Positions 4,757-36,350 of a stretch of DNA of 64,000 nt are shown here, in pieces. The notes beneath the pieces were generated by a model. That model was not told the DNA's origin. It searched no databases and worked only from the letters and a program-made list of their open reading frames with translations. Source of the stretch: a virus; the IMG/VR virus record IMGVR_UViG_3300040801_003053, positions 1 to 64,000 of that record; one strand, 5' to 3'. The position numbers and the translations under genes were made by a program. Position 1 is the first letter of the stretch. Each line of letters begins with the position of its first letter.

Positions 4757-4864
4757 TACAATTATATACAGTAAATAGTCTCCAAAAAAAAAATAAATCC
4801 CTAACACATAAGGTGCGAAGCTGCCTCAGTTCGTGTTCAAAGTTCATATGAAGCAATTGCCACA

Positions 4865-18884: not shown

Positions 18885-19349
18885 ATGGAAATAAAACGAG
18901 ACGTATTTGGCATTAACTATTTCTTTCAGAAGTGTCTGAGAGGAGGAAAGAAATACGACACGTTAAAGCACTTCGGAGTCAAAACCCCCTTCAATAAAAA
19001 AAAGAAGATCGAGATAAAACAATTTCGATCAATTCTCAAAGCATACAGTGAAGTTTACCTGGGCGATCTTTATTACGGGGATCAGCCTATGTATTTTCCT
19101 ATCGGCGGGAAATTAATGAAAACACGATCACGTAGAAAGAACAAACTTCTGCAGGATTCCATTTACTTCATCTGGTATCACCGAATGAAATTGTCCTATG
19201 CCCTGAACATGAAGCTGATCAAAGTAAGACACAGTAACATTCATTTGGAATGGACAGACAGGATAAGGGCAACACAAGACACAAGTCTCTTGGATGAAAA
19301 GCATGAGGCTACAATAAAATTAATAACCAAATTGGTGCGAAATGATTAG
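18885..19349 (+). CDS. Basic neck/tail protein, 154 aa
   Basis: This strongly basic protein begins MEIKRDVFGINYFFQKCLRGGKKYDTL and contains KKKKIEIKQFRSILKAYSEVYLGD and a KTRSRRKNKLLQD stretch. It follows the preceding ring-like gene after one base and overlaps the next by 8 bases. The basic charge could support DNA or portal-channel contact. Small basic proteins occur between ring genes in related phages. No named family is recognised. Confidence 0.6.
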   Translation: MEIKRDVFGINYFFQKCLRGGKKYDTLKHFGVKTPFNKKKKIEIKQFRSILKAYSEVYLGDLYYGDQPMYFPIGGKLMKTRSRRKNKLLQDSIYFIWYHRMKLSYALNMKLIKVRHSNIHLEWTDRIRATQDTSLLDEKHEATIKLITKLVRND

Positions 19350-20058
19350 TGGATTAGTATTCTTTGAAGAGTTGGTGCAGTCGTTTAAAGACGAAACCGG
19401 CATTGAAAACGCTCAAAACTATTACGAGAAATTGGCTCGCATTATTTTTGATGCAGAAGAAGACATAGGGTACCACGGCACAATCGTACCAAAGATTAAA
19501 ACCTACACAAAGGGTTCTGAAGGTTATGACGGCTCTTGGCTTCCGGTTCCTTATGATTTTACAGGGGAATACCATTACGCTGCAATCAACACAGGTCGGT
19601 GGATGGGTAATGGCATTAAGCTTTATGAAGATGGCCCGGACAGTGTTGACTTGAAATACATGGGATTCATGACGGACAGTTATGGGCAGCCTGTAACGAC
19701 AATGAATCACAAGCGAGCTGTTGTTGCTCGAATGGTTTGGAAAATGTATGCAAGGAAAGTTTTTATGGGCCAGGGAGATAGGCAGCAATTACGCTATTTG
19801 AAAAGAGATTATGAAGATCTTGTTATGGCCTCCAGAGGGCATGATGCTTTCCCGACAGAAGAAGAACTTTCCATTATCGGAGAGACTCTGAGAACGCCTA
19901 CATCACAATTGATCACATTGACATGTGGCCAGGTAGAGGATCCATATGCAGACATACTCATTGGCGGGTCTACAACCGCGCCTCCGGGTAGTGGTGATGC
20001 TGATTGCGGAGATCTTACCGTAGATATGGTTGCAGTATTTGAAGCAAATTTAACTTAA
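19342..20058 (+). CDS. Probable tail-ring protein, 238 aa
   Basis: The protein starts MISGLVFFEELVQSFKDETGIENAQNYYEKLAR. It has a beta-rich middle (GSWLPVPYDFTGEYHYAAINTGRWMGNG) and a helical C-terminal part (NHKRAVVARMVWKMYARKVFMGQGDRQQ). It is the last of a run of small neck and tail genes that, in crAss-like phages, precede the muzzle gene; here the fibre cassette intervenes. The role as a ring protein is inferred from order and size. Confidence 0.5.
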   Translation: MISGLVFFEELVQSFKDETGIENAQNYYEKLARIIFDAEEDIGYHGTIVPKIKTYTKGSEGYDGSWLPVPYDFTGEYHYAAINTGRWMGNGIKLYEDGPDSVDLKYMGFMTDSYGQPVTTMNHKRAVVARMVWKMYARKVFMGQGDRQQLRYLKRDYEDLVMASRGHDAFPTEEELSIIGETLRTPTSQLITLTCGQVEDPYADILIGGSTTAPPGSGDADCGDLTVDMVAVFEANLT

Positions 20059-20062
20059 AGCA

Positions 20063-20344
20063 ATGGCAAAATTATCAGAACAATTAGATACGGAATTAGC
20101 TGCGTTTGCAGAGCGAATGGCAGAAGAGTTCAACAAGCGCATGGGGCCATGGAAAGTGCTTACTATTGACGGTAGGCGCTTCTATCATGTAAAAGGATTG
20201 AATAATTTTGTCGATGGCGCTTGGGAGCCTGGCGATAAAGCTGTCGGAGATAAAAACGGCTATGTGATTATCGCTGAGTTTTTGGGCGGCGATCCTGATG
20301 ACTGGGATAATGATGCCGTTTGGGATAAATCAACAATAGGATAA
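20063..20344 (+). CDS. Small acidic protein, 93 aa
   Basis: The protein begins MAKLSEQLDTELAAFAERMAEEFNKRMG. An N-terminal amphipathic helix is followed by a small beta domain (GPWKVLTIDGRRFYHVKG) and an Asp/Trp-rich tail (GGDPDDWDNDAVWD). It starts the tail-fibre cassette directly before the S74 fibre. A virion linker or attachment role is possible but unsupported. Confidence 0.6.
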   Translation: MAKLSEQLDTELAAFAERMAEEFNKRMGPWKVLTIDGRRFYHVKGLNNFVDGAWEPGDKAVGDKNGYVIIAEFLGGDPDDWDNDAVWDKSTIG

Positions 20345-20354
20345 AAAAAGAATC

Positions 20355-23300
20355 ATGAAAAAATATCTAGTATTAATAGCTCTTTTTGTTTTTGCCTTTG
20401 GCTATTCGCAACAAGGGCCTCCTCACAAGACTCGAACACAACTTCAGCTTGACGAGGCAGACGAAACAACAACAGTGAACAACTTGCTCACTCGTGGAGA
20501 TGACAAGATTGTAGATATTGTCACTTGGGATGAGTTTATCACGCTTCTCGAAAATGAGGGTATTGGTGGTGGTGGAGCTGGCAATACAGATCTTTCAGCT
20601 ACGCATAGCCCTACAGGTGTTGTTGTTTCATCAAGTACAGGAGACGATGCTACGCTATTATTCGCTACGCCGATCAATGCAGGACTTCTCAGTCCGGCTG
20701 ACAAAACGATCATAGACAACCTATCTTCTTTTGATCCTACAAATTACGCTCGAACCGATATAGATGAAATTTTCGAGCAAGGCATAACCGTAATTGACGG
20801 CATACGCATAGGCAACCAGAGTACCTATGGATATTTGAATTTTTATGGTGGTGGCACCGGAGAAGTAAAAGCTTCCATTTCTTTTGACGCTCAAACCAAA
20901 GACATTGTTTTTGTCAACAATGAGGTCAGCGGAAATTATTCCTTTGACGGAACGGTGGCGGTATCGGATCCTGTTGGAAATACAGATGCAGTCAATATGC
21001 AGTACATGGAGGATAATCTTGCCGGAACGACAAACACTACGGCTTTTGTGCCAACGGCCGACTACCATCCTGCAACTAAAAAATATGTGGATGATGAAAT
21101 TATTGCTGGAGGGGGATATAATGATGAAAACGCTCAAGACGCTATTGGAAGCATCTTGTTGGACGGAACAAGTATAAACTTCACCTACGATGACAACACG
21201 CCATCAATTACAGGAGAAGTCATCATGTCGGCTCTTTCAATTACTACAAGCCAGATTACAGACTTCGGAACATATGTGCAAAGCACAGATAATACAACCT
21301 TTACCGGGAATAATACTTTCAATGAGGCGATCACTTACAATGCAACCAATGCCGAGATTGATGCTATTGGAGAAAATGTAGTTATGTCTGTAGACTGGTA
21401 TTTGGACAACCTATATCATACCGGAGATAATATTGCGATTACGCCTGCAGGAAACCTCACTTCAACAGATGTGCAAAACGCCCTTGAAGAGCTTCAAATT
21501 GACATTGACAATACTGTAGCCGGAAATATCCAATACGCCATTACAACGGACTATACGACCGATGCAAGCAACTCAGGTCAGAAAGGAATCATGACTTCCG
21601 GAAATACAATTACCATTGACGGGACAGGGTTGCTTGTTGAATATGAAAATACAATTGTAAATGGGTCGGCAAACAATATCACGGTTGATATTGCAGCGGG
21701 ACAAAGCACATTTAACAACCAAACATTGCCCGCGATACTTGCGCCTGGTTATTATGTCTACATGGAAAAAACAGGAGCAACACAATGGAGTGTCATTATT
21801 GGCGGCGCCGGTGGCGGTGGCGGTGGTGATGTTTACCTGGCAGGCAACCAGACGTTCACCGGCAATAACGTATTTGACGAAAACATTACGCTCAATAGTG
21901 ATCCTACAACAGGGGACCATATTGGAAATGTGACCTACAATGACAATCGCTATGCCACAGAAGAAGTTGATCGCATTACAAAAAATGCCAATTTCTCTAC
22001 AACACTTGCTGAAAAGGGAGATTTTATCGATATGACCGGAGGAACGACTGTCACATTGGATTTGACAGGATTGCCTGATGGTTACAACCAGACTGTCTTT
22101 AATGATACAGGCGGCAATGTTGCTCTCTCATCGGCAAACACAATCAAAGGGCAGAACAATAGTATTCCAAATGGGTACTTTGCTACTTATGTTCTCGATT
22201 CAGTGGCTGGCGAATGGCTTGTATCTACTCCGGGAGCTGGGGGCGGTAGTGGCGCAGTCGATTCCGTTAATGGAGAAACAGGAGCCGTTGTTCTTACTTC
22301 AGACGATATTGACGATACAGGTCAGGCTCACCAGTTTGTTACGGCTACCGATGTGACCAATTTAGGCAACCTTTCAGGAGTAAACTCGGGTGACCAGACT
22401 ATTACGCTTACAGGAGATATTACAGGGTCAGGAACAGGCTCTTTTGCAACGACTATTGCCAATGGGGCCGTACAAATGGACGATCTTGACGCAACGGGAA
22501 CGCCAAGTGCTTCTACCATTCTTTTTGGCGATGGTGTTTGGCGGTCTATATCTGGCGGTGGTGATATGCTCAAAAGTGTATATGACACAAATGATGATGG
22601 AGCGGTCAACAATACAGACAGTCTTGGAGGTGTTGTAGCTTCAGATTATGCAAGATTGAGTCAAGCGAATACATTCACTAATATTGGCAATACGTTTCAG
22701 ACGAGGTTAACAATAGGTGATAATACGATTACAAATCCAACTTTGTATTTTGAATCAACCAATGGACCGAACACAGGAATCATACAGGCTGATTTGAATG
22801 CAATGAGTTTTAATTCAAATGGAATTTCATTTCAAATCAGCAGTGCCAATTCTCAATTACAAACAGCTTGGGATCCAACAACAGGTGATGGTATCGGAAA
22901 CCGAGATTATAACGATGGACGTTATGCCATAAATTCTCACAACCACGGAACCTTTGACCGAAATACGGCAGACCTTTCAGGAGCAACTGTATTTGACCGT
23001 ATTGCGGTGACTGACGGAATTGTGACAGATATAGGTACGCGAAATATTACACTTGCTAACTTGGGGTATGTGGGAGATCTTGATGCAAACAATTATGTGC
23101 ATCCAACAGGAGACGGAAACTTGCATGTGCCCGCAAGTGGCTCTACCAACTCCGGAAATGTGCTGACAGCAACGTCAACACCAGGTCAATATGTATGGTC
23201 AGCCCCGGCATCCGGCGGCATGACTTCATGGGATATTGAAGTGGACGGTGTTTTTAAAGAGGCTATAACACAAGGAGAGAACGTAAGTTTTGATAGCGGG

Positions 23301-23939
23301 ACCGGAATACAGGTAACGGGAACGACGGTCACCAACCCAAATCTGACGTTTGCCCTGACAAATACGGCGGTTACCCCCGGAACATACAATTCGGCAAATA
23401 TTACAGTAGACGCTCAAGGGCGTATTACTTCGGCGGCGGCCGGCGCACAGGGAACCATGTCCTCTTTCCGTTTGGTAGATAAAACTGGAACTCTACGAGA
23501 AGCGATAACCGATGGTGAAGACATCGGATTTGTTGGAGGAAACGGAATAGGCGTTGTCATTGACACCACTACGGATCCTGATATTACTTTCAGTTTAGGA
23601 GGCTTGTCAGCTGATTGGAATGCGGGAAGCTACAATATTACTGCAGGAGGCTTTTATGAAAGCTCTATGCGATCTTTGAAGATGAACATAGCCCCTTTTA
23701 CCAAAAGCGCGCTAGAACTCATCAGAAGCCTTGAAATTGTTTCATACGACAGAATAGAGGGTGCTAAGAACAAAATAGGGGTGATCATTGAAGATACACC
23801 CGAGGAATTTGGAAACGAGGATATGACAGCCGTAGATATTTACAAGACAGTATTTATTCAGGCAAAGGCGATACAGGAACTTGAAGAAAAAATAGAACAA
23901 CTCGAATCACGAATTGAAAAGCTAGAGAATGGCAATTGA
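20355..23939 (+). CDS. Tail fibre with S74 chaperone and signal peptide
   Basis: This 1194-residue receptor-binding fibre has repetitive beta-rich segments (NTFTGNNTFNEAI, QTFTGNNVFDENI, NTFTNIGNTFQTRL). The C-terminal intramolecular chaperone is of Peptidase_S74 (endosialidase) type, with the self-cleaving Ser-Lys pair in SSMRSLKMNI (K1109, with S1103 or S1104) and IGVIIEDTPEEFG. It ends in a short coiled coil (LEEKIEQLESRIEKLENGN). S74 proteins form trimers and cut off their chaperone. Unexpectedly it begins with a Sec signal peptide (MKKYLVLIALFVFAFGYSQ). Confidence 0.88.
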   Translation: MKKYLVLIALFVFAFGYSQQGPPHKTRTQLQLDEADETTTVNNLLTRGDDKIVDIVTWDEFITLLENEGIGGGGAGNTDLSATHSPTGVVVSSSTGDDATLLFATPINAGLLSPADKTIIDNLSSFDPTNYARTDIDEIFEQGITVIDGIRIGNQSTYGYLNFYGGGTGEVKASISFDAQTKDIVFVNNEVSGNYSFDGTVAVSDPVGNTDAVNMQYMEDNLAGTTNTTAFVPTADYHPATKKYVDDEIIAGGGYNDENAQDAIGSILLDGTSINFTYDDNTPSITGEVIMSALSITTSQITDFGTYVQSTDNTTFTGNNTFNEAITYNATNAEIDAIGENVVMSVDWYLDNLYHTGDNIAITPAGNLTSTDVQNALEELQIDIDNTVAGNIQYAITTDYTTDASNSGQKGIMTSGNTITIDGTGLLVEYENTIVNGSANNITVDIAAGQSTFNNQTLPAILAPGYYVYMEKTGATQWSVIIGGAGGGGGGDVYLAGNQTFTGNNVFDENITLNSDPTTGDHIGNVTYNDNRYATEEVDRITKNANFSTTLAEKGDFIDMTGGTTVTLDLTGLPDGYNQTVFNDTGGNVALSSANTIKGQNNSIPNGYFATYVLDSVAGEWLVSTPGAGGGSGAVDSVNGETGAVVLTSDDIDDTGQAHQFVTATDVTNLGNLSGVNSGDQTITLTGDITGSGTGSFATTIANGAVQMDDLDATGTPSASTILFGDGVWRSISGGGDMLKSVYDTNDDGAVNNTDSLGGVVASDYARLSQANTFTNIGNTFQTRLTIGDNTITNPTLYFESTNGPNTGIIQADLNAMSFNSNGISFQISSANSQLQTAWDPTTGDGIGNRDYNDGRYAINSHNHGTFDRNTADLSGATVFDRIAVTDGIVTDIGTRNITLANLGYVGDLDANNYVHPTGDGNLHVPASGSTNSGNVLTATSTPGQYVWSAPASGGMTSWDIEVDGVFKEAITQGENVSFDSGTGIQVTGTTVTNPNLTFALTNTAVTPGTYNSANITVDAQGRITSAAAGAQGTMSSFRLVDKTGTLREAITDGEDIGFVGGNGIGVVIDTTTDPDITFSLGGLSADWNAGSYNITAGGFYESSMRSLKMNIAPFTKSALELIRSLEIVSYDRIEGAKNKIGVIIEDTPEEFGNEDMTAVDIYKTVFIQAKAIQELEEKIEQLESRIEKLENGN

Positions 23940-25221
23940 TAGTGACAAAATGGTAACATTCTCCGATCTCGGGGAGCTTGTGGCTTTTGAAGGTTTTGAC
24001 GTAAAGAATCCTTTCGATGATTCAGTCAAGAAAGCCTGTACAAAAGCTGAGGTCGATGCTGCTATTGAGGTTGAGAAGATCGCTGAATATGTAAGCTGGC
24101 CTTCAAACAAATTGGTGCCACGAAGATTGCTTAATCCAAGACCTTATTATTGGGATGGAATGTTTATCTCTTGCGAGACAACGGATATTGGTGATGACCC
24201 GCCAACGGCACCTGTCATCTACAATACGTCTGCCACGCCAAACAGCCTCACAATAAGTTATTCAATCTCCAGTGACGATAATGGGATCGATCATTACCAA
24301 GCATATATCCGGAATCCTCAGACGGGAACCGTGAATAGTTACAATGCTGGACTCAGTTTGTTCTATACGTTTAATGGTTTAAATGCCAACACCCAGTATG
24401 AGATGTGGGTTGTGGCGGTAGACACTATCGGTCAAAACTCACCGGACAGCAATCACGTAAACGCTTACACGACATCGGCAAGTACCGGTGTCAATACAAT
24501 GGGCATTCTAACCTATGTTGGAGCTAATACAGGATCGGTAGATCTGGTGTGGGCCGATCCCGAGGAAGTGAAGTCTGGACAGACCGTATCTACATTCCGG
24601 TTTGAATATCGTGTTTACGGCAGTGGCAGTAGTTGGACCCTGCATGGATCCTCTGTAAGTGGATCTCTACGGGAAACTACATTGACAGGTCTTTCATCCA
24701 ACACAAATTATGAGATGAGAGCCAGGTTCCAAACCAATACAGGGGAATGGAGTTCTTACAGTAATATCATCATATTCGCTACAACGGCACCAACGGTCCT
24801 TTCTTGTGGAACAACAGATATTGAAGGATCACATAGCAATGTGTCAAAGCAATATACAATCAATATGTCGGGGAGCACAGGGTCTTTCATGTTTGAGGTT
24901 CAACCCTACTCTGTGCCAGACCGGTTTGTAATTTTGAGCGGTGGCAATGTTTTGTACGATTCAAAATATATCGGATCCTCATCGGACTACTTTGTAACTG
25001 AATTGGATCGTTTGGGTGTGCCTGCATCCGATCGCAGATTAGGGCAAACTGATCTGATTTTCCCTGAAACAGAAATTATCAATGAGGGGCAAACTCTTTA
25101 CAGGTATGGTCGAAGAGGGTACATAAGTGCAAATCAAATTACAGGAGGCCAGGTTACGCTCATTGTGTTTGCCCCGGTGAATGTAACTACATGGAGAGCT
25201 AAAATACAATGCCCATCATGA
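23929..25221 (+). CDS. Fibronectin type III tail-associated protein, 430 aa
   Basis: After an acidic N-terminal region (about 1-80) there are two fibronectin type III-like domains. The first runs from roughly 83 to 185 (PTAPVIYNTSATPNSLTISYS, LNANTQYEMWVVAVDTIGQ), the second from roughly 190 to 285 (GLSSNTNYEMRARFQTNTGEWS). The C-terminal 130 residues are an unrecognised beta domain. Fibronectin domains in phages mediate weak carbohydrate or surface contacts. It overlaps the S74 fibre by 11 bases and is probably an adhesin or fibre partner. No signal peptide is seen here. Confidence 0.75.
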   Translation: MAIDSDKMVTFSDLGELVAFEGFDVKNPFDDSVKKACTKAEVDAAIEVEKIAEYVSWPSNKLVPRRLLNPRPYYWDGMFISCETTDIGDDPPTAPVIYNTSATPNSLTISYSISSDDNGIDHYQAYIRNPQTGTVNSYNAGLSLFYTFNGLNANTQYEMWVVAVDTIGQNSPDSNHVNAYTTSASTGVNTMGILTYVGANTGSVDLVWADPEEVKSGQTVSTFRFEYRVYGSGSSWTLHGSSVSGSLRETTLTGLSSNTNYEMRARFQTNTGEWSSYSNIIIFATTAPTVLSCGTTDIEGSHSNVSKQYTINMSGSTGSFMFEVQPYSVPDRFVILSGGNVLYDSKYIGSSSDYFVTELDRLGVPASDRRLGQTDLIFPETEIINEGQTLYRYGRRGYISANQITGGQVTLIVFAPVNVTTWRAKIQCPS

Positions 25222-25649
25222 GCAATACAGGATACAAAATATGGCTGAGAAGAATCAAGAAATGGTCTGACGATGACTCAAATGCAGGGGTTGTTGAAAT
25301 AAACACCGAGTTCCTGCCAGATGGAGTCACCCCTGACCCTAATTATATTCCAAAAGAATATGACCCGCTCTCCTGCCCATTGCCAATCACAACATACCCA
25401 AGAACACTTTCTGATACGGGAACGGGTGTGATCACTTGTCAGTCGGGAGGCGCATGGCAGAATGCTTATACAAATAACCAATTTACGAATCCGGCAGTAG
25501 GAAATTATTTCTATCAAGATACGGATGGCTATAACCCTTGGCCTGGAGGTAATAGGTGGTGGAACTTTAACGGTTCGACAGCAACACAGGTGAAAATTGA
25601 TAACAACGGAAGAGTCACACAAATACAAACAGGATGCCCCGAATTATGA
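25218..25649 (+). CDS. Unrecognised tail-cassette protein, 143 aa
   Basis: ATG at 25218 overlaps the upstream stop (ATGA) and is preferred to one 9 bases earlier. The protein begins MSNTGYKIWLRRIKKWSDDDSNAG and is aromatic and Gly/Asn-rich in the second half (YNPWPGGNRWWNFNGSTATQVKIDNNG), suggesting a small beta or carbohydrate-binding module. It is coupled by ATGA to the giant beta-helix gene downstream. It may be an adaptor of the fibre cassette. Confidence 0.6.
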   Translation: MSNTGYKIWLRRIKKWSDDDSNAGVVEINTEFLPDGVTPDPNYIPKEYDPLSCPLPITTYPRTLSDTGTGVITCQSGGAWQNAYTNNQFTNPAVGNYFYQDTDGYNPWPGGNRWWNFNGSTATQVKIDNNGRVTQIQTGCPEL

Positions 25650-28600
25650 AAAACTTAATCTACATACTACTTTTCGCAACATCGATAATGTTTTGTCAAA
25701 ACCCGGCAATCGTTCAAGTGCAAATAGGTCAAGAAGCTGAAAAGCCACCTGTAGAGCCTAAAGATTATTTGGAGTTTCTAACAACATCCAATTCGGCTAC
25801 ATTTTCTCCAGATGATATTATCAATTCTGGAGGTGATTTAACCTGGACAGTAAACGGCGGCCAAAGCCAAACCATTTCAGGTAGTGTTGAGCCTGTCTTT
25901 GATTTAAGCGGCAATGTCGATACAGACACCATACGCATAAAATCATTGACCGATTTTGTTGGGTTGACCAAGATCACATTTACAGATAAAGCCATTACTG
26001 GGTTTGATGTTAGCCTAGCGCAAGACCTCTATACATTTGAAGTTAAGATTGGCAACACCCTTTCAGAAGCTGATGTGACAAGCAATTTGGAACTGGGAGA
26101 GCTGGTCATACGCGATCAGCTGATTACGAGCATAGACATATCTAGCAATCCCGATCTTTTTGAATTATGGGCCTACAGAAACAGCCTAAACTATCTGGAC
26201 ATATCTAATAATCCTTTACTTACAACTGTTTCTATTCATGGAAACAATCTACAATCAGCAACTTTGGACTCGATTGTCAACCAGCTTGATTCCAATGGCC
26301 TTTCCAATGGGCGTTTGGATATTATCAACAATGCAGGGTCTTTAACCGGAGCTGTATATACCGCTTATCAAAATTTAATTGCCAGAGGATGGACGATTGA
26401 TGTTGGCCCTCCTGACAATCCGGCTGACGCAGGGCTTACTCCTGTTCTCTCAGCCTTTTATGTGGACGATGTCAATCCGGACCGGGTTTACTTTGATGCT
26501 TCAGCAGACATCACAGGTTTAACTCAGCAAGGATTTACAGTATCTGGAAAGACACTGGAAGCCTCTAATGGACTTGTCATTGACGGTGATGGTCTTGGTG
26601 GTTATTTAGACGTTACTGTACCTTTTACCTATTGGGATAACCTTTTGGTTTGGCTTGAGGGTGGTAATGGGACTGTACACGACTTTATGCAAGTGGAAGT
26701 TGATAATCGTATTTCTGAGCCATCGTCTACGGGTAGCACGTATTACGTTACAACTTCAGGTAATGACGGAAATGATGGCTTGTCGGAAGGTAATGCCTGG
26801 AGAACTTTAGCCTATGCGGATGGACAATTATCAGCAGGAGATATTCTTTACGTTAAGGCGGGTAATTATGGTGATGATAAAATGTATCTGGTTAACAGGG
26901 CCGGGACAGCCGCAAATCCAATTAAGATCATTGGATATAAAAACACACCAGGAGATATTACAACAAATTACTACGATTACGGAGTAGCCTGGTCTACAAG
27001 TGAAATGCCAACTGTTGATGGTAATGGTGCAGTCACAAGGGCTTTTGAGGCTACTGGGGCAAGCTATTTAATCGTAAAGAATTTCCAATATACAGATCAT
27101 AGATATGGAATGTATTTTGCAAATACAACCACAGCTAATAACATTCATGTTGAGCGTTGTAACTTCCTAGATCAAGGAGATGTATCTACGGACGGGGCTA
27201 GTGTTTACAGTACAGGAATTGCAAATACAAAAATGCGATTCAAAGATTGTGTATTCAATGATGCTTCCGATGTCAATATCGTTTTGATGGGCAACAACAA
27301 TTCAATCATTGACTGTAAATCTTACGGAGAGAGGACAGATAATAACTTCCCTGACCTTGACTTGGAAACCGACTACTACTACATCATATCTGGCTTGTAC
27401 AATACGATAATTGGAAGCATAGCAGAAAGAAAAGGTCAAACAGATCACGGTGGTCATGGCATCTCCTTGAAAAATCAGTATTACACTGTTGATAACACCT
27501 ATGCCGTTGAGAGAAATTTAGTCAAGAATTGTGTTGTTAAAAATATCAATGGAGCGGTTGAACTGCGCCATGCAACTGTTCAAGATAATTATGTCTATAA
27601 CGTTGAAATGGACGCTTCTGGAGGTGGAACAACATCGGCAGGACTTGTCATTCGTGACGGTGCTAAAAACAACGTAGTGGACGCTTGCGAGGTTCACAGC
27701 ATACCAACAGGGGCTTCTTTTTATGGAGCTGTCTACTTTACCAATACGAGTGAGGATCAATCCTCTAACCAAAATATAACTGGTAACATCATCAAGAACT
27801 GCATCTTTAGGGATGGCGGAGCGAATGTTCACGCAATTAATTGGGGAACAACAGGAACATACGCATACACGGTAAGCGGAAACAAGTTCTACAACAATAC
27901 GTTTGACAACTTCCCACGATTCCAAAACAAAGATGGTATTGTGGTTGTGAGTTCGGACAATGAGTTCAAGAACAACATTTTTAACGATGTGACTGTGTTG
28001 GGTGACGCGGTTGCAAATGTATATGACTACAACCTATTCTTTAATGGATTTGCAGCCCAAGGAACAAATACAATAACAATCGATCCTCAAATGGATATTA
28101 GTTATGTCCCTGGTGCTACTTTCACAGATATTGATGTACCAGCTTTATCATCTGTCAAATACGATAAAAACAGCAGGGAGCGAAATAGAACTTTAACCAC
28201 TGCTGGGGCACAAAGTCATTCTGAAGAGCCCTCAAACACAGAAAACCTATCAACTCCTGTTCTCTCAGCTTTCTATGTAGATGACACTAACCCGGATCGA
28301 GTGTATTACACTTCAAGCGATGATGAATCTGGATTAACAACTCAAGGTTTCACGATTTCCGGAAAAACCGTATCAGGAATAAACACGACAGACAACTATA
28401 TTACCGTATCTACTCCATTTACTTATTGGGATTTTGCAATAACGATTAAGCTAGAGAATGGAAATGGAGTAGTGCATGATTTCTATTTGAATGAAGTTGT
28501 CAACAACATCTCAGAGCCTACAAACTCCACGATTAAATATGTAGCCGTTGGAGCATCGGGATCAGGAGACTCAACAGGCGATCCTATGTCTTGGTCAGAC

Positions 28601-30718
28601 GCTCAGAGTGTGTCGGCAGGAACAACGGTTTATTGGAAAGCGGGTAACTATGGGGCGATCAATTTCACTCAAACAAATAGCGGTACGTCCACAGCACCAA
28701 TCAAGCATATTGGGTATAAGACCACACCAGGGGATGCAGCAGAGCTTACAAGGTCTGTGGGCATGGCTTTTGACAGTGCGGAAATGCCATTGATTGATAG
28801 TTTTACTGGAAATGCTTTCTATTCCGTATCGAAGCAATACGTGATCTTTAAAAACTTCCAAGTTTCCAATGGAACGACAGCGTTTTATATAGACAACTCA
28901 GATTATCACTTTTTCGAGAACACTTACATAGACGATATGAGTTCATTCGGGATCTTGACTATTGATTCAGGGTCGCTAGGTAATAAAATCAAGCGGAGCT
29001 ATGTTGCGAATTGTTCTTCCGTGGGTTACAGGCTCTACAATCACAACAACGTATTTGACGATGTGTATGCTTGTACTTCCGAAATATCAAGCATGGACTA
29101 TTACATAAGTCTCTATGGAGGAACTGGAAGCCTACCAAACCTTGTGAAAGACTCCTACGTGTACAGATTGTCAACGGATAATCATGGGGGCCATGGAGTT
29201 GACCTGAAAGCAGGAGAGGAAGTTTGGACCCTTGAGAATACTCTGGTTGAAAACAATGAGCTTGTTAATGTGAATCAATCCCTGACAGTACGACACAGGG
29301 GAACAAAATACAATGTATTTAGAGGTAATACAGTTCGGGCTGAAACAGCAGGGAACGGAAACGGGATTGTTTTTCATGATGGAGGGGCCTATAACGTATT
29401 TGACGGAAATACAATCATAGACAAAGGAAACGCTTTCAGGTGGTATGAGTCAAGTGAGGACGAAGAAGATTACGCCAATAAAGAGTCCGGCAACAATAAC
29501 TTGATTATTAACAATGTCATTGATGGGGTTTATGCAATACTTGATGTAGCCTTTTATGACTTGGACGACCATGTTGTTCCTTTCCATGACAACAAGTGGT
29601 ACAACAACACTTTTCATGATGTTACCTATTTCTATAAAGAAGACACAGAGACTTTTGACAGTACCAACGAGTTTAAGAACAACATCTTTGACGGTGTGGC
29701 AATCAAAGGAACAGGATCAGAGAATATCACGTTTGACTACAACTTATTTAATGCAAGCTGGACAACGAGCTATGGAACAAACTCCATAAGTGCAGATCCT
29801 CAGTTGGATGCCAGCTATGTTCCTCAAGCCTTATTTGCTTCGATTGGCGTACCTCAAATATCCGGTCTGTACTATGATTATTATGCAGGTGAAAGAGAAT
29901 CGACAACAACAGCAGGTGCGGTTAAACACACGGATGAATTGTCTGCACCCGACACGACAGCACCTCTTTACGTTTCTTCCTCAGTTGAAAATGGGGCACC
30001 GTCAAGCCTGGTAATCAATTACGATGAACCATTGGACGCAACAAGCGTACCCGCAACAACTGATTTCTCAGTCAATGACGGATTAGCAAATCCGGTGACG
30101 AATGTTTCAATAAGTGGGTTGAGCACAACCCTGACGCTCACCAATGAAATAGATAATGGCGATACAGTGACATTGAGCTACACGAAAGGAACAAACCCAA
30201 TTCAGGATGACGATGCGAATGAAGCTGTTAATCTTGTGGGCGAATCGGTGACAAATAACGTGTTGGGCGCAACAGAGATTTACCCAACAGGTAACGCGGC
30301 GAGTATAGGAGCGTCCGAAGGGAATAGTACAGGAAGTTGGCTTGGTGTAAGTGCAACTCTGACTTCTGAATCTGGAGACACCTACGATGGAACGTATGCC
30401 TTGAAAATAAATTCTAATACAACAGGAACTTGTAGAGGTGAAATAACATGGACACAAACACTAGGTACAGATGTTACGGTGACTTTCAGAATGAAGGTAG
30501 TGCAAGGCTCTTGGGCCAGATCCTACGCCTGGACAGGCTTTACGGCTTCACCTGATACAGGAATCCTAAATGACGTTGATGATGGAACGTGGATAGAATA
30601 TTCCTACACTCTGACCCCTAGTAGTACCGAAGGAAAAATGAGAATTTACTCCACTTACAACACCTCTGGTACAATAGGAGACAATGTGCTGGTAGACTCA
30701 ATAACAATTACGCAATGA
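25646..30718 (+). CDS. Secreted-type duplicated beta-helix protein, 1690 aa
   Basis: ATG at 25646 gives a signal-like N-terminus (MKNLIYILLFATSIMFCQN). Domains in order: a leucine-rich-repeat-like region at about 60-240 (LDISNNPLL); a first unit of VLSAFYVDD...PDRVY and a right-handed beta-helix (YYVTTSGNDGNDGLSEGNAW); a second diverged copy of the same unit; a SwmB/SbsA-like Ig domain near 1430-1530 (YDEPLDATSVPATTDFSVND); and a C-terminal jelly-roll carbohydrate-binding-like domain. Beta-helices of this type bind or cleave polysaccharides in tailspikes, so it is a candidate depolymerase. The catalytic residues cannot be assigned. Confidence 0.75.
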   Translation: MKNLIYILLFATSIMFCQNPAIVQVQIGQEAEKPPVEPKDYLEFLTTSNSATFSPDDIINSGGDLTWTVNGGQSQTISGSVEPVFDLSGNVDTDTIRIKSLTDFVGLTKITFTDKAITGFDVSLAQDLYTFEVKIGNTLSEADVTSNLELGELVIRDQLITSIDISSNPDLFELWAYRNSLNYLDISNNPLLTTVSIHGNNLQSATLDSIVNQLDSNGLSNGRLDIINNAGSLTGAVYTAYQNLIARGWTIDVGPPDNPADAGLTPVLSAFYVDDVNPDRVYFDASADITGLTQQGFTVSGKTLEASNGLVIDGDGLGGYLDVTVPFTYWDNLLVWLEGGNGTVHDFMQVEVDNRISEPSSTGSTYYVTTSGNDGNDGLSEGNAWRTLAYADGQLSAGDILYVKAGNYGDDKMYLVNRAGTAANPIKIIGYKNTPGDITTNYYDYGVAWSTSEMPTVDGNGAVTRAFEATGASYLIVKNFQYTDHRYGMYFANTTTANNIHVERCNFLDQGDVSTDGASVYSTGIANTKMRFKDCVFNDASDVNIVLMGNNNSIIDCKSYGERTDNNFPDLDLETDYYYIISGLYNTIIGSIAERKGQTDHGGHGISLKNQYYTVDNTYAVERNLVKNCVVKNINGAVELRHATVQDNYVYNVEMDASGGGTTSAGLVIRDGAKNNVVDACEVHSIPTGASFYGAVYFTNTSEDQSSNQNITGNIIKNCIFRDGGANVHAINWGTTGTYAYTVSGNKFYNNTFDNFPRFQNKDGIVVVSSDNEFKNNIFNDVTVLGDAVANVYDYNLFFNGFAAQGTNTITIDPQMDISYVPGATFTDIDVPALSSVKYDKNSRERNRTLTTAGAQSHSEEPSNTENLSTPVLSAFYVDDTNPDRVYYTSSDDESGLTTQGFTISGKTVSGINTTDNYITVSTPFTYWDFAITIKLENGNGVVHDFYLNEVVNNISEPTNSTIKYVAVGASGSGDSTGDPMSWSDAQSVSAGTTVYWKAGNYGAINFTQTNSGTSTAPIKHIGYKTTPGDAAELTRSVGMAFDSAEMPLIDSFTGNAFYSVSKQYVIFKNFQVSNGTTAFYIDNSDYHFFENTYIDDMSSFGILTIDSGSLGNKIKRSYVANCSSVGYRLYNHNNVFDDVYACTSEISSMDYYISLYGGTGSLPNLVKDSYVYRLSTDNHGGHGVDLKAGEEVWTLENTLVENNELVNVNQSLTVRHRGTKYNVFRGNTVRAETAGNGNGIVFHDGGAYNVFDGNTIIDKGNAFRWYESSEDEEDYANKESGNNNLIINNVIDGVYAILDVAFYDLDDHVVPFHDNKWYNNTFHDVTYFYKEDTETFDSTNEFKNNIFDGVAIKGTGSENITFDYNLFNASWTTSYGTNSISADPQLDASYVPQALFASIGVPQISGLYYDYYAGERESTTTAGAVKHTDELSAPDTTAPLYVSSSVENGAPSSLVINYDEPLDATSVPATTDFSVNDGLANPVTNVSISGLSTTLTLTNEIDNGDTVTLSYTKGTNPIQDDDANEAVNLVGESVTNNVLGATEIYPTGNAASIGASEGNSTGSWLGVSATLTSESGDTYDGTYALKINSNTTGTCRGEITWTQTLGTDVTVTFRMKVVQGSWARSYAWTGFTASPDTGILNDVDDGTWIEYSYTLTPSSTEGKMRIYSTYNTSGTIGDNVLVDSITITQ
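26438..29940 (+). repeat. Internal tandem duplication of about 600 codons
   Basis: The unit starting near 26438 (ACTCCTGTTCTCTCAGCC, encoding VLSAFYVDDVNPDRVY) recurs near 28253 with the same order of elements: VLSAFYVDD, PDRVY, GLTxQGFTxSGKT, PFTYWD, a YxxKAGNYG beta-helix opening, then HGGHGxxLK and a TTAGA-type end. Copies are spaced by about 1.8 kb and diverged, so this is an old duplication within one gene. Confidence 0.8.
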
Positions 30719-33186
30719 TGACAACTAAAAAGCTATTTTCCATCTTACTGATCCTTGTGAGTTTTAGTGTTCAAGCACAATTAGTTCGGGCGGTTATCGG
30801 TCAGAACAATTCGGCTACCGGGGGAGAAAGCATTCCCACAGGAGCAGACTATTACGTGTCAACCTCTGGCACGGGAACAGGGGATGGTTCTATTGGTGAT
30901 CCGTTAGACTTTACGCAACTCCAAGCCCTAACTCCTGTGGCGGGAGATACCATTGCCCTGAAAGGGGGGGATGAGTTTTATGGGAGCCTGACATTATCGG
31001 GTGTAAACGGAACGGTTGGAAACCCAATTACTTTTACTTCTTACGGAACAGGTAAAGCTACTATAAAAGGTTCAGAATCAATTACGGGATGGGCGAATGA
31101 AGGTGGCAATATTTGGAGTGCTGATGTTACTGGAAAAACAATTTACAATGTGTTTTCAAATGGTGTCCCAGCTAATAACACAAGGACACCATTGCCAAAT
31201 ATGTACACTATTGATACTAAAACATCAAACACAGTTTTTATATGCAACGAGTTAGCTGGAGTTGGATATCCTGACATTGTTGGTGCAACAGTTTACACGG
31301 AGTCTAATCAATGGACAATGCAAAATAGGACTGTTACTGCCTTTAATGCTACAACTGGAGAAATAACTTTGAGTGGTGCTGAAACAATTTCAGAAGGAAA
31401 TTTATTCACAATACATAATCACAAGAATTTATTATCAAGTCAAGATGATTGGGCTTACGATTCTTTAGCGAATAAATTGTATGTATATTCAACAACGTCT
31501 CCAACAAATGTAACCGCAACCACAAGCAATACGAATGGTATTTCTATTGCAACATCAAGCTACGTTACCATTGATGGTTTAGAGGTTAAGCACTTCTCAA
31601 ACTATGGAATCTCATTTTCTGGTTCAAATAATCTTGTTTTCGATAACAATTATATTCACGATTGTAATCTCAGGGGTATTTCAGAGGCTTCCTACAATAA
31701 CACAAATACTTACATCACTGTGACCAACAATCAAATTGAGAAAATGGATGAGCACGCTATTAGAATTTATGGTCAAAATTCTGTAATTGAAGATAATGTG
31801 ATTTCTAATGTGGGTATGCAGGATTACAAGACATGGACTAACTCAGGATATACCACCGCAATATATTCAAACAGTGATGATGGCACTATTAAAAGGAATT
31901 CCATTGAAAACACGGGCTATAATGCAATTAATTTTTCAGGTCAGAGAACAATTATTGATAAGAATTATGTAGAAAACACAAATATCTACCTACCTGATGG
32001 GGGGGCTATCTATACTTACAGTACTGACTTTACAGATACAACAGGTGACGATTCCGAAATAACAGATAATACAGTAATAAATCCTGTCCCCGCAAGATTT
32101 AGAGAGAGTATAGGATTGATTTACCTGGACGACAGAAGTAAAGGGCAAACAGTTAGTGGAAACACAACAGAGGGCGGTAAACGAGGTATTTTCTTACACA
32201 ACACAAGAAATGTAACCGTATTGAATAATACAGTTCACGCACCAGCCCAAGACGGTATAGGGATATCAGAAGATGCAAATGGAGGAAGCGGGAACACCTA
32301 TGGCAATGTTCTTACTGGAAATAAAGTTCTTGTTGCAGACAGTGAATATCCTGTGTCCGCTATCGGAGTTGCAAGTTCTTATGGCAGTACGGGAATGTAC
32401 ACTGGATCAAACAATGAGTATTATAACATTGGGTTTTCTCATCCTGTATTATTCAGAAACACATCAACATATTTCTTAAATTCAAATTATCCAAAACCTC
32501 TTACTGTTTCTGAATTGCAAACCTTGATTTCGAGTGAATCTGGCACGACTTCAAATTCTAGTTATGACAATGAGCAATTTTCTTTAGCAACACAAGGAGC
32601 TGAAATTTATACAAATACCAATTTCGCTTCTGGCATAAGTCCGTGGAACGCAACAGGTTCAGGCGCATTGGTTACGTGGAATGCCTCTGGATACCTGGAG
32701 TTTGACCCTAATGGAAATGCAAATGCAATGGTCGCTGCAAATGACCTCAGGGTAAATGCTACTGAAGGTCAAGTTTATTTGGTTCAGTTTGATGTGAAAG
32801 GGACGACACCTCATTGGGGTAGATTCAACTTTCAAATGACAGGCTCGCCTTACAAATCTGCTGGAATACGACCATTTTGGATAACCTCATCATGGATGAC
32901 TCACAAGTATTTAATCAGAATTACTGACACTGGAAATGATTACAGAAGTGAATGGAGAAACGAAAACGATTCTGTGAATGGATTTGAGTTAGATAATGTC
33001 AGCTTGACCCTAGTCACTGAAAGTACTAAGCCCCAGAACACATTCTTAGCCTACAACGAAACTTCAGTTGCAAAAGATATTGCACTTCCGGCAGGAACTT
33101 GGGATAGCGTAGACGGAACGCAAACAAATAAAACGGGGACAGTGACAGTGCCCGCATATAACTCATACATAATGATAAAACAATGA
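30715..33186 (+). CDS. Beta-helix protein with signal peptide, 823 aa
   Basis: The N-terminus is a clear signal peptide (MTTKKLFSILLILVSFSVQAQ). It is followed by LVRAVIGQ, matching the post-signal IVQVQIGQ of the preceding protein. Residues 40-600 are a parallel beta-helix of polysaccharide-lyase type (YYVSTSGTGTGDGS, TSYGTGKATIKGSESI, many repeated NNxI/NTV turns). A jelly-roll carbohydrate-binding-like domain (about 630-765) and a short beta tail complete it. It is probably a polysaccharide-binding or -cleaving spike. Parts appear more A/T-rich than flanking genes, consistent with recent exchange. Confidence 0.72.
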   Translation: MMTTKKLFSILLILVSFSVQAQLVRAVIGQNNSATGGESIPTGADYYVSTSGTGTGDGSIGDPLDFTQLQALTPVAGDTIALKGGDEFYGSLTLSGVNGTVGNPITFTSYGTGKATIKGSESITGWANEGGNIWSADVTGKTIYNVFSNGVPANNTRTPLPNMYTIDTKTSNTVFICNELAGVGYPDIVGATVYTESNQWTMQNRTVTAFNATTGEITLSGAETISEGNLFTIHNHKNLLSSQDDWAYDSLANKLYVYSTTSPTNVTATTSNTNGISIATSSYVTIDGLEVKHFSNYGISFSGSNNLVFDNNYIHDCNLRGISEASYNNTNTYITVTNNQIEKMDEHAIRIYGQNSVIEDNVISNVGMQDYKTWTNSGYTTAIYSNSDDGTIKRNSIENTGYNAINFSGQRTIIDKNYVENTNIYLPDGGAIYTYSTDFTDTTGDDSEITDNTVINPVPARFRESIGLIYLDDRSKGQTVSGNTTEGGKRGIFLHNTRNVTVLNNTVHAPAQDGIGISEDANGGSGNTYGNVLTGNKVLVADSEYPVSAIGVASSYGSTGMYTGSNNEYYNIGFSHPVLFRNTSTYFLNSNYPKPLTVSELQTLISSESGTTSNSSYDNEQFSLATQGAEIYTNTNFASGISPWNATGSGALVTWNASGYLEFDPNGNANAMVAANDLRVNATEGQVYLVQFDVKGTTPHWGRFNFQMTGSPYKSAGIRPFWITSSWMTHKYLIRITDTGNDYRSEWRNENDSVNGFELDNVSLTLVTESTKPQNTFLAYNETSVAKDIALPAGTWDSVDGTQTNKTGTVTVPAYNSYIMIKQ

Positions 33187-33878
33187 TGAGAAGAAGATTT
33201 GTACCAATATTTTTAAAACGTAGAAATGCAAGTAGTGTACCACCAAGTTACATTACGCCACTTTTCTCCGATACTTTTGATGGAACAATAATAGATACGG
33301 GAAAATGGACGATTGTAAATCCACAGCCTACCCAAGTTGTATTTTCGCAAAATAACGAATATGATGCATTGTTACAGGGGGCAGACACAGGGTATTTGGA
33401 TAATCATTGGGCTTCTGTCCCTAGCTTCAATGTGGCAATTAATCCGACACTTGTGTTTACAGTTGACTTTAAAACCACATCAACAGAGCTTGGTAATGGT
33501 AGGGGGTATATCTATTTAGCGAAAAATTATCCATCTGAACTTGATGTTCTTACTTTGAGAAACGATGGAGCTAATACAGTTGCAATAGAATTTAAAATAG
33601 GAGGAAGCTCACAATTCAACCAGACATTCACCACACCCTTAAACCTTACAAACTATCAAACGTTCAAATTTGTATTAACAAGTGCGGGATTTGATGTGTA
33701 TGTGTGGGATACAAGTTCATGGTTACTATTAAAATCACATGCAACAGCTATATCCGGAGATTACAATTTTGTACTGGATGCCAGGTCATTAGGGGCAGAC
33801 GGAAATACAGTAAATTACGATAATGTATATGTGTGTGCTGAAGATTTTGATTCGCAATATCCTTCACTAACACCATAA
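33183..33878 (+). CDS. Concanavalin/LamG-like lectin protein, 231 aa
   Basis: After a short basic N-terminus (MMRRRFVPIFLKRRNASS) comes a jelly-roll domain with opening LFSDTFDGTIIDTGKWTIVNP, a pattern of concanavalin-like lectin or glucanase folds (GH16 or LamG superfamily). The central strands are typical (FKIGGSSQFNQTFTTPL). The GH16 catalytic ExDxxE signature is not seen, so it is more likely a binding module than an enzyme. It overlaps the upstream beta-helix gene by four bases. Confidence 0.65.
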   Translation: MMRRRFVPIFLKRRNASSVPPSYITPLFSDTFDGTIIDTGKWTIVNPQPTQVVFSQNNEYDALLQGADTGYLDNHWASVPSFNVAINPTLVFTVDFKTTSTELGNGRGYIYLAKNYPSELDVLTLRNDGANTVAIEFKIGGSSQFNQTFTTPLNLTNYQTFKFVLTSAGFDVYVWDTSSWLLLKSHATAISGDYNFVLDARSLGADGNTVNYDNVYVCAEDFDSQYPSLTP

Positions 33879-33938
33879 AATACGTTCACAATGAAGAACA
33901 GAACAACGAAATTAATAATGACTTAAAATTCAAATATC

Positions 33939-34469
33939 ATGGCAATTAAATTAGGCTTTCTAACAGCTTTAATGTTCATTCTGGTATCATTTACCCTTTC
34001 CAGCCAAACAACGACAAGGAAAGGGTATTATAACGCTCACATGGGGGATTCAATCGGTCCAAACCGAACTACAGCCGACAAAGCGATATTGGATTGCTAT
34101 GGTATGAGTCAAAATAATCCGGATGGTCTGGAGATCTATTACACGTTGCCTGCCCGGGTCGTAGTTGATTTTCCTATTGACTCTCCGGTCATTGTTACCG
34201 AGCCTCAATTTTTAATCAATTCGGTAACCCAAGAGGTCGGTCAGACTTCGGTTGTGCTTAATATTGAATTTAGCACATCGGATTTAAAATTTGCTTATGT
34301 AAGGTTTCGTCCTGTTGGAGGTATATGGCAACGAACCAATGATGATCCAGCTTATGTTCATTGGATCGGAGCTTTGGATAGAAATACTGAATATGAATAC
34401 ATTGTGTATGGGGAAAACATGGATGGTGTAAAAATCAATAGTGACTTATTGACCTTTATTACAAATTGA
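33939..34469 (+). CDS. Signal-peptide fibronectin-like protein, 176 aa
   Basis: The protein begins with a Sec-type signal (MAIKLGFLTALMFILVSFTLSSQ). Its C-terminal 95 residues form a fibronectin type III-like fold (QTSVVLNIEFSTSDLKFAYVRFRPVGG...LDRNTEYEYIVYGENMDGVK). The middle links these with TTRKGYYNAHMGDSIGPNRTTADKAI. It is the fourth protein of the fibre cassette to carry a signal-like N-terminus. It is likely surface- or virion-associated; the precise role is unknown. Confidence 0.68.
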   Translation: MAIKLGFLTALMFILVSFTLSSQTTTRKGYYNAHMGDSIGPNRTTADKAILDCYGMSQNNPDGLEIYYTLPARVVVDFPIDSPVIVTEPQFLINSVTQEVGQTSVVLNIEFSTSDLKFAYVRFRPVGGIWQRTNDDPAYVHWIGALDRNTEYEYIVYGENMDGVKINSDLLTFITN

Positions 34470-34510: not shown

Positions 34511-34819
34511 ATGGAAGTATTAGTAAATTTCGGAATTGGACTACTGGGGATCCTTTTTTTAACACTTTTCAATGCAAAAGACTACTTAGCAAAAAAAGAC
34601 AAAACCTTTTCTTGGCCTGTTCATGTTAAAGAAAACTACAATCGATGGATATGGGCCGGACTTATGATCGGAGTTATATCTGTCATTGTTTTTGTAGAGC
34701 CTAATACAGCAGACGGAATCAAAAGTTTCACCGGACTTGATGTTGCGGGTTCACGAGTATCTTTCTTTACTCTTGGACTTGCCTTGACAGCTATGACGAA
34801 GAAAAAGTCAATAAATTAA
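34511..34819 (+). CDS. Small membrane protein, holin-like, 102 aa
   Basis: It has two or three hydrophobic segments: about 2-22 (VLVNFGIGLLGILFLTLFNA), 48-64 (WIWAGLMIGVISVIVFV), and a weaker one at 84-94 (FFTLGLALTAM). The C-terminus is KKKSIN. Size and topology resemble phage holins, which form membrane lesions at lysis. It is the first of six consecutive small membrane proteins, so it may be one of a set with related roles. No family is named. Confidence 0.6.
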   Translation: MEVLVNFGIGLLGILFLTLFNAKDYLAKKDKTFSWPVHVKENYNRWIWAGLMIGVISVIVFVEPNTADGIKSFTGLDVAGSRVSFFTLGLALTAMTKKKSIN

Positions 34820-34827
34820 AAATTGCA

Positions 34828-35139
34828 ATGAAGGAATACGTAGTTGAAGCTCTAAAAGACGTATTAATTTTTTTTGTTTTTGGAGCGTACACACTAATAG
34901 CGAGAACAAATGCAGCAAAAACACCATTAAATCTCAGACAGAAATTTAACGTCTTTTATATGGCAGTTGCATCAGGATGGGGAATATACAGTTTACTACT
35001 TGGGGTAAATCCATGGGTAGGTGAACCTCCTCAAAAGATTTTCATTATAATGACGGCCACCGTTGCGGGAACAAATACGGTTGCCTGGTTAAAGAGAAAA
35101 CAAATAATTCAAAAATTAATAGACGTTCTTATAAAATGA
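34828..35139 (+). CDS. Small membrane protein, 103 aa
   Basis: The protein begins MKEYVVEALKDVLIFFVFGAYTLIARTNAA. Hydrophobic segments lie at about 9-26, 43-60 and 72-86, separated by a basic linker (TPLNLRQKFN) and ending in KRKQIIQKLIDVLIK. The arrangement is holin-like. It overlaps the next gene by four bases. An alternative is a phage membrane protein unrelated to lysis. Confidence 0.55.
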   Translation: MKEYVVEALKDVLIFFVFGAYTLIARTNAAKTPLNLRQKFNVFYMAVASGWGIYSLLLGVNPWVGEPPQKIFIIMTATVAGTNTVAWLKRKQIIQKLIDVLIK

Positions 35140-35519
35140 TTTGGTTTAGTATTACATCAGCAATATGGCTTGTGATACGTTCTGGTGTAGAAGCATGGGC
35201 GACATCCAAGGCCTATAAAAAAGGAAGATATGTAGAAAACAAATTCCAGCATAGCAATCACCACATGGGAGGCTTGTACGGCTATGTGTATTGGGGTTTG
35301 ATTTGTTTAGCAATGATTTTTCTTGGATACAGGTTTGATGATTATTGGGTTCCTATACACACAGCTTTCAATCTGCTATTGATTTACAATGTAGAGCACT
35401 TCTATCAAGAAAGAACAGAAACCATTGGCCCCATTGAGCCTTATAAATTATTCCGGATCCCGGGACTCTTCAAATTCAATTGGTCCTGGATTTTTAAAAG
35501 TCAGAAAATAAACCATTAA
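35136..35519 (+). CDS. Membrane protein with His cluster, 127 aa
   Basis: The N-terminal and central hydrophobic segments (IWFSITSAIWLVIRSGVEAW; YGYVYWGLICLAMIFLGYRF; WVPIHTAFNLLLIYNVEHF) suggest two to three spans. A HSNHH cluster at about 39-43 and later His residues (IHTAF, VEHFY) resemble an H-box of membrane hydroxylases, but only one such box is present. It ends with a cytosolic aromatic tail. No family is recognised. Confidence 0.55.
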   Translation: MIWFSITSAIWLVIRSGVEAWATSKAYKKGRYVENKFQHSNHHMGGLYGYVYWGLICLAMIFLGYRFDDYWVPIHTAFNLLLIYNVEHFYQERTETIGPIEPYKLFRIPGLFKFNWSWIFKSQKINH

Positions 35520-35530
35520 ATATCTATACC

Positions 35531-35779
35531 ATGAAAAATTTCACATTATTAAAACCACTGTTCACACAAGGATTTTTAGTATTCCTTGTTTTCTTTGTTG
35601 TCATTGATCTTTTGTTGTTCCGATACATGAAAGCTTTTGCTCCTGTATGGTTCATCTTTGTCACTCAAATCACAGCGATCATAGGCTATGTCGTTTCAAA
35701 TGGATTTGGTGATGCCGGAAAGGTCGTATGGGACTTTGCAAAAAAATGGTGGCCAGATAATGAAACGGAGAAAGCATGA
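35531..35779 (+). CDS. Small membrane protein, 82 aa
   Basis: Two hydrophobic segments lie at about 14-31 (GFLVFLVFFVVIDLLLFR) and 39-56 (VWFIFVTQITAIIGYVVS), followed by an amphipathic tail (DFAKKWWPDNETEKA). It is a holin- or antiholin-like small membrane protein. Its stop overlaps the start of the next gene by four bases. Confidence 0.55.
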   Translation: MKNFTLLKPLFTQGFLVFLVFFVVIDLLLFRYMKAFAPVWFIFVTQITAIIGYVVSNGFGDAGKVVWDFAKKWWPDNETEKA

Positions 35780-35946
35780 AAAAGTTAGTTCAATTCTCTC
35801 CAGTCATTTTGATGGCTTGCTTGTTTTTCTATATTATCATCAAGCAGCCTGACTGGTCAAAAGCCGGATTCTGGATTGTAGGCATCTGCCTTGCGGCAAT
35901 GCTGATCTACGGATTCTCCGGAAGAATTTTCAAGAAAAGAAAATGA
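35776..35946 (+). CDS. Small two-span membrane protein, 56 aa
   Basis: The frame runs from ATG at 35776 to TGA at 35944-35946 and reads MKKLVQFSPVILMACLFFYI onward, with a second span (WIVGICLAAMLIYGFSG) and a basic end (RIFKKRK). Positive charges flank both segments. It overlaps the neighbour genes by four bases on each side, which supports real expression. It is another member of the small-membrane-protein cluster. Confidence 0.6.
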   Translation: MKKLVQFSPVILMACLFFYIIIKQPDWSKAGFWIVGICLAAMLIYGFSGRIFKKRK

Positions 35947-36350
35947 AAGATGTATATGTCACATTAGCCTGTATTGCTCTTTTCAACTTTTTATCGGGTT
36001 GGACGTTTGCTCTTGTCGAGCTAAATGAAGACCTCAGAAGTCAAAAAGCACGAAAAAGGAATAGAATGTGGTATTATACAAAAGCAGCTTATATCGGGGT
36101 TATATGCGCCCTATCTTCATATTTTGTTTTTGGTTTAAGCATAGTGTCATTTGTATTTTGGATTAATTTACTTGCATTGACCCCGATTATTTTTAACCCT
36201 ACGATCAACCTGTTTAAGAAAAACGGGTTTTTCTATTTGGGAGAGAATGGTTTTGAAGGCAATTTTCGAGATCCCTGGTGGAAACGATTGCTTTACTACC
36301 TTATATTTGTACTAATATTCATCATAACCTTTTATATATTTTCAAAATGA
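35943..36350 (+). CDS. Membrane protein, 135 aa
   Basis: The protein begins MKDVYVTLACIALFNFLSGWTFALVELNED. Four hydrophobic regions are visible: about 6-24, 46-60, 62-84 and 113-134 (LLYYLIFVLIFIITFYIFS). Basic loops (RSQKARKRNRMWYYTK) separate them. It is the last of the membrane-protein run. Function unknown; holin-like or superinfection-exclusion roles are both possible. Confidence 0.58.
   Translation: MKDVYVTLACIALFNFLSGWTFALVELNEDLRSQKARKRNRMWYYTKAAYIGVICALSSYFVFGLSIVSFVFWINLLALTPIIFNPTINLFKKNGFFYLGENGFEGNFRDPWWKRLLYYLIFVLIFIITFYIFSK

Follow-up and report, generated by a model that had tools for sequence, protein, structure and literature searches.

Why would a tailed phage place signal peptides on its tail fibres, when such phages are generally held to assemble their tail proteins in the cytoplasm? 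The question is raised by a fibre cassette of about 14 kb in the viral record IMGVR_UViG_3300040801_003053 (75,553 bases), of which we analysed a 64 kb stretch, hereafter the window. A first-pass annotation had proposed that four frames of this cassette, with starts at 20355, 25646, 30715 and 33939, begin with Sec signal peptides, and we found leaders in all four. We put at about 0.6 the probability that these leaders function as Sec signals on true tail-fibre or tailspike proteins, that an adapter or a leader serves such proteins as an interchangeable N-terminal module, and that the leadered ones are exported and attached late. The observations that carry this reading are the leaders and their cleavage sites followed by glutamine (Gln, Q), their recurrence in other phages, the swaps of N-terminal modules and the annotation of leadered proteins as virion parts by tandem mass spectrometry (MS/MS).

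The leader calls are heuristic scores from purpose-made rules, a general rule and a strict Q-leader rule requiring Gln at +1. The four proteins, all on the plus strand, are a 1194-amino-acid (aa) fibre (20355-23939) with a C-terminal S74 chaperone domain (23670-23810), a 1690-aa protein (25646-30718) with an internalin-like stretch, an SWM repeat and two repeats, an 823-aa right-handed beta-helix protein (30715-33186; PF13229, 1e-17) and a 176-aa protein (33939-34469). For the second, 25646 is a likelier start than that of the longer 25634 frame, because it leaves a 4-base overlap with the preceding gene, as in the neighbouring genes. The leaders span 20355-20408 (MKKYLVLIALFVFAFGYS, followed by QQ), 25646-25696, 30715-30777 and 33939-34004, and the predicted cleavage sites are GYS/QQ, MFC/QN, VQA/QL and LSS/QT, respectively. 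A charged n-region, a hydrophobic core, a small residue at -1 and Gln at +1 are thus present in 4/4 proteins, in keeping with the Q-rule of Bacteroidota signal peptidase I; the weakest site is that of 25646, with Cys at -1 and Met at -3. In Bacteroidetes, Gln occupies +1 in 71% of signal-peptidase-I substrates on average over species (PMC5837995), and this Gln is converted to pyroglutamate, which stabilises exported proteins (PMC10653852). Among 55 open reading frames (ORFs) of the window, the general rule flagged the four cassette proteins and a membrane-like protein (5487-); among the 46 ORFs of at least 100 aa, the strict rule returned the four and a membrane-like protein at 59500, flagged when read from an internal Met. 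Only 1 of 501 phage ORFs from leaderless control loci passed the strict rule, and shuffled N-termini of the four proteins passed 1, 1, 30 and 14 times per 2000.

Other export routes and reasons were considered. No lipobox (Cys at +1, signal peptidase II) was flagged on the four window proteins and no type IX sorting domain (TIGR04183 and kin) was detected on them by a library that does detect the one on the cellular locus L069; a type IX or lipoprotein route was rejected on these grounds. A need for disulfide bonds was rejected as the reason for export, many mature leadered fibres having no cysteine (0 in 20355 and 0 in the fibre of record G046). As to an internal start yielding a cytoplasmic form, the 20355 translation has no Met soon after the leader, an observation made outside any systematic test.

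Gln at +1 is also present in 7/7 fibre-sized leaders of three crAss-like records (G046, G064 and G050), so that cleavage-type residues and Gln +1 are kept in 11/11 leaders of four crAss-like phages, four of them in the window and seven in the others. This bears on the proposal that the leader is not used for export and stays as an anchor in the tail or at a membrane-bound assembly site. The leadered proteins of G064 and G050 do lack the usual adapter domain, so their attachment must come otherwise, but an uncut anchor would have no need of the conserved residues and we regard a retained leader as highly improbable. The kindred suggestion of the first-pass annotation, that the leader has turned into a virion attachment peptide, is disfavoured since Q-rule sites imply cutting by signal peptidase I. 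Its alternative suggestion that the fibres are exported gains support: every window leader follows the Q-rule, a pattern that has a meaning only with cutting by signal peptidase I.

Cultured phages bear on whether leadered proteins reach the virion. Sixteen cultured Bacteroidota phages were examined, most in part (phi4:1, MA9V-1, crAss001, ProJPt-Bp1, phi38:1, phi10:1, phi46:1, B40-8, phi19:1, phi17:1 and 6H), and fibre-sized Q-leaders were found in three, phi10:1, phi19:1 and phi39:1. In these three, MS/MS annotation assigns ten leadered proteins, fibres or pectate lyases, to the virion: gp091, gp092, gp093 (pectate lyase) and gp094 (tail fiber) of phi10:1, gp101-gp104 of phi19:1, and gp25 and gp26 of phi39:1. 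The strict rule counts five, three and one proteins in the three genomes and is failed by two of the ten. The predicted mature N-termini in phi10:1 are pQ-TTDVVK (gp091), pQ-TVIK (gp093) and pQ-TVEGTVGSDGSLIPYNVSGGLDETAVDTK (gp094). These cassettes, with products MS/MS-annotated as virion parts, resemble that of the window in their consecutive leadered fibre or pectate-lyase genes; they differ in that the genomes are not crAss-like and that their annotations are silent on leaders. In addition, a DUF4468 protein with a Q-rule leader lies in an otherwise leaderless stretch of Flavobacterium phage 6H (L174, 8153-8707, minus strand).

The strongest single point is that one tailspike body is virion-annotated both with a leader and with an ordinary N-terminus. 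Leadered phi10:1 gp093 shares 44-50% identity over 658-664 aa with gp051 and gp052 of Cellulophaga phage phi4:1 and g086 of phi14:2, the latter phage a Crassvirales member; these tailspikes have no leader, start with an ordinary N-terminal region and are likewise MS/MS-annotated. The corresponding phi19:1 gp102 is a 97% copy of gp093 and hence not an independent case. The first-pass annotation had held that the same fibres without a leader would speak against its proposal. Such versions do occur at the level of modules (phi14:2, phi4:1 and the crAss-like record G060), but the leadered versions are virion-annotated. With both versions known, fibres with and fibres without a leader appear to be alternative designs, and being a virion fibre and being exported need not exclude each other.

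The same data weigh on the view that the leadered proteins are exported but act as free polysaccharide-binding or polysaccharide-degrading enzymes, which would loosen the host surface or block re-infection, while the particle uses the leaderless proteins 23929 and 36769. For the window phage this is possible: 30715, a beta-helix protein, weakly matches a xylosidase, its sole full-length relative found is cellular and has a type IX tail, the leaderless core tail protein 36769 remains available, and a leadered pectate lyase of phi10:1, gp095, carries no mass-spectrometry note. Set against it are the ten MS/MS-annotated leadered proteins in three cultured phages and the fact that the body of gp093 is a virion protein, by MS/MS annotation, in leaderless phages as well. 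We therefore consider free enzymes an unlikely explanation, albeit one to be taken seriously.

The fibre identity of the window proteins was assessed from domains and relatives. The name tail cassette proved correct by position, with crAss-like head/tail genes on one side of the cassette and the conserved tail genes 36769/38631 on the other, and the S74 fibre of the first-pass annotation is real, with a Peptidase_S74 domain on 20355 that is modest by Pfam (24.7 bits, cut-off 22). Over its last 100 residues, 20355 shares 53-56% identity with a leaderless fibre of Chryseobacterium phage MA9V-1 (2373 aa) and one of G060 (296 aa). The gene after the G060 S74 fibre is akin to window 23929 (28.7% over 94 aa), a 430-aa leaderless protein (23929-25221, plus strand) with two fn3 stretches, and we therefore see fibre and partner as a phage module. 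At its N-terminus, the G060 fibre has a leaderless domain common to two sibling fibres (46-65%), where the window counterpart has a leader; the N-terminus of 20355 is akin to the leadered fibre of G046. Protein 25646 is akin to a leadered 1112-aa protein of G064, shares its two repeats with a beta-helix-type protein of G064 and is also akin to a leaderless, MS/MS-annotated structural protein of phi4:1. The xylosidase match of the 30715 beta-helix is partial and confined to residues 45-139. Megablast of the cassette and tblastn of 30715, 25209 and 33939 against phage records, the S74 alignment against viral contigs and single-protein scans for 20355, 30715 and 25634 yielded nothing of use.

Capture of host secreted genes, which would make the four proteins passengers and no fibres at all, has to be weighed at this point. 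Cellular S74 proteins occur in 31/42 Flavobacteriales-order genomes, and 21 of the 30 top-scoring cellular S74 loci are leadered by a fixed rule (of the nine others, one is cut by a contig edge). Like 20355, these proteins combine a leader, often with Gln +1, and a C-terminal S74 domain; they differ in lying on cellular contigs. Up to 14 were counted per Flavobacteriales-order genome, mostly leadered. Within the phylum, a leader together with S74 is thus ordinary; what is unusual is a leader on a virion fibre. In favour of capture, 30715 matches a cellular protein (L069, one of 42 genomes) over residues 75-821; at its end, the cellular protein has a type IX sorting domain that 30715 lacks. In contrast, the S74 domain of 20355 is 53% identical to the leaderless crAss-like fibre of G060, whose next gene is akin to 23929, and only 32% identical to the sole cellular match found. 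The N-terminal domain of the G064 and G050 fibres was found in 0/42 genomes, in a search run without a positive control, whereas phage tail proteins contain parts of it; the genes overlap in a tight operon. As a whole explanation, capture was rejected for 20355 but may apply to 30715. The first-pass suggestion of captured host genes thus fits 30715 best and fails for 20355, as leaderless fibre modules of phages match both its S74 end and its downstream partner gene; that all four are passengers we consider very unlikely. None of the three rivals, free enzymes, retained leaders or captured host genes, explains all observations.

We then considered how often the leaders recur. The terminase and portal of the window share about 18-28% identity with Crassvirales records, the capsid gave a weak PHROG match alone (tblastn against phage records was without match), and the gene order is that of the relatives and, in outline, of the phi14:2 and crAss001 records. 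By this terminase and portal kinship the virus is classed as a crAss-like phage (Crassvirales or close), and the leaders themselves suggest a Bacteroidota host. Related loci were collected by capsid and terminase alignments (44 and 25), and 18 crAss-like records were counted, namely the window, G003 and 16 further cassettes, with G057 repeating G062 in the stretch tested and the G064 contig stopping before the hub gene. Outside the 18 stand G001, G002 and G065, on contigs that stop within the cassette or short of it, and G055, G058 and G061, taken from match tables as near copies of G048 and G053. Fibre-sized Q-leader proteins are present in 4/18 records: three in the window (plus the 176-aa one), four in G064, two in G050 and one in G046; Q-leader proteins of less than 250 aa in G048, G050, G051, G052, G060 and G062 are outside this count. 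On the capsid tree (18 rows) the trait requires at least three changes; leadered G050 and G064 are sisters, and the nearest rows to the window are leaderless where read. The N-termini of the first leadered fibres match at 52% over 143 aa for G064 and G050 and at 27% over 133 aa for G046 and the window, and weakly for G050 and the window (E 0.002-0.004). Part of this likeness stems from the leader, but in the pairs G064/G050 and G046/window the mature parts match too. Apart from leadered fibres, the general rule picked out three proteins in L070-L133, of 564 aa (GroEL-like), 267 aa (lipoprotein-like) and 323 aa, and one of 328 aa in L140, none of which we took for a fibre leader.

Further observations were made on these loci. 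An unrelated phage contig, G066 (L161, L154), on which an integrase-like frame was recognised by eye, encodes several Q-leader proteins in succession within the tail region. In the closest relatives of the window (G053, G056, G058, G061 and G063, all from a match table), the homologue of a 1544-aa hub is split in two, residues 1 to about 1413 lying in a longer frame and the last 125 residues further on in another frame.

An exchange of modules is also seen in G064 and G050, in which the end of a 170-aa protein coincides with the start of the leadered fibre. In about a dozen relatives, the N-terminus of leaderless fibres (415 to 1295 aa) is homologous to the first 100 residues of this protein (phmmer, alignment). 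Consequently, the domain that heads the leaderless fibres is a separate gene before the leadered fibres of G064 and G050. By iterated search, the 107-aa gp24 of phi39:1, which precedes leadered gp25, matches the N-terminus of the leaderless 1068-aa fibre of G047. An AlphaFold model of the adapter family (mean predicted local distance difference test score, pLDDT, 66) gave no fold match in PDB or among viral folds at E 0.001. In G067 (L155), a leadered and a leaderless protein adjoin (1483-3039 and 3044-5188) and have related N-termini (50% over 72 aa).

From these data we infer export, cleavage, and the time and place of attachment, as follows. Fibre bodies would carry at the N-terminus a Q-rule Sec leader or, for docking to the tail in the cytoplasm, an adapter. 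Those with a leader would pass through Sec and lose it to signal peptidase I, the Gln at mature +1 would be capped as pyroglutamate by a host cyclase, and the trimmed fibres would fold in the periplasm. They would also stay there, a retention that we propose because the type IX signal was not found. Lysis would then mix the compartments and bring fibres and particles together, and attachment would in part be mediated by leaderless proteins, partners or adapters, whose genes lie alongside.

Several points weigh against this reading. The window phage is known from its contig alone, and most phages do without leadered fibres (only 4/18 crAss-like and 3/16 cultured phages have them). Virion membership is taken from MS/MS notes in records, from which purification and contaminants cannot be judged, and gp095 of phi10:1 is leadered but without such a note. 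In phi19:1 gp104 the leader is without Gln where cleavage is likely, and a Glu lies within the hydrophobic stretch of phi39:1 gp25, which does not pass the strict rule. The pattern of adapters and leaders has exceptions too: the stand-alone adapter of G052 comes with no leadered fibre, a fused leaderless fibre is present in G050 as well, and window 20063, the counterpart by position, showed neither a detectable relative nor adapter homology.

The latter is a 93-aa leaderless protein (20063-20344) directly before the first leadered fibre, the position of the stand-alone adapter in two relatives; the cassette begins directly after a conserved tail gene (19342-20058) that closes the head-tail block and has homologues at the same position in relatives. 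The remaining cassette genes encode leaderless proteins, one of 146 aa with no assigned function (25209-25649; phrog_21885, E 2e-5) and one, an ORF, of 231 aa (33183-33878). After the cassette come five small membrane-like proteins (34511-36350), hydrophobic frames without Pfam match and perhaps lysis genes, and the 620-aa leaderless core tail protein (36769-38631), whose N-terminus is kept in relatives; all these genes are on the plus strand. Elsewhere, the window encodes a 604-aa protein with a phage tail lysozyme domain (43751-45565; PF18013) and a NUMOD4/HNH homing endonuclease-like gene (1317-1850, minus strand).

Virion proteins made with Sec leaders are familiar from the coat of filamentous phages; unlike the window phage, these have membrane-extruded particles and are not tailed. 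A literature search, mostly outside subscription journals and of sources available in part, did not find leaders described on tailed-phage fibres. Within that scope, the nearest precedent is five Q-rule genes of Porphyromonas gingivalis phages, of unassigned function and noted as adapted to host export, which the part of the source available does not describe as fibres or virion parts (PMC10367356). Absence of signal peptides in phage hypervariable proteins has been taken as support for phage origin (PMC6199706).

Our data suggest that some tailed viruses export fibres before attaching them. More broadly, the receptor-binding fibres of tailed Bacteroidota phages may be built outside the cytoplasm, through Sec, trimming, pyroglutamate and periplasmic folding, and be added to completed particles during lysis or later. 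This would be a second route of assembly, arisen or spread repeatedly by adapter-leader swap; we hold the odds of all this to be about even. The idea is directly testable on cultured Cellulophaga phages, perhaps on existing mass-spectrometry data. If true, it would change assembly order, folding conditions and infection timing for a group of phages, and for the same group also the annotation rules that separate phage from host genes.

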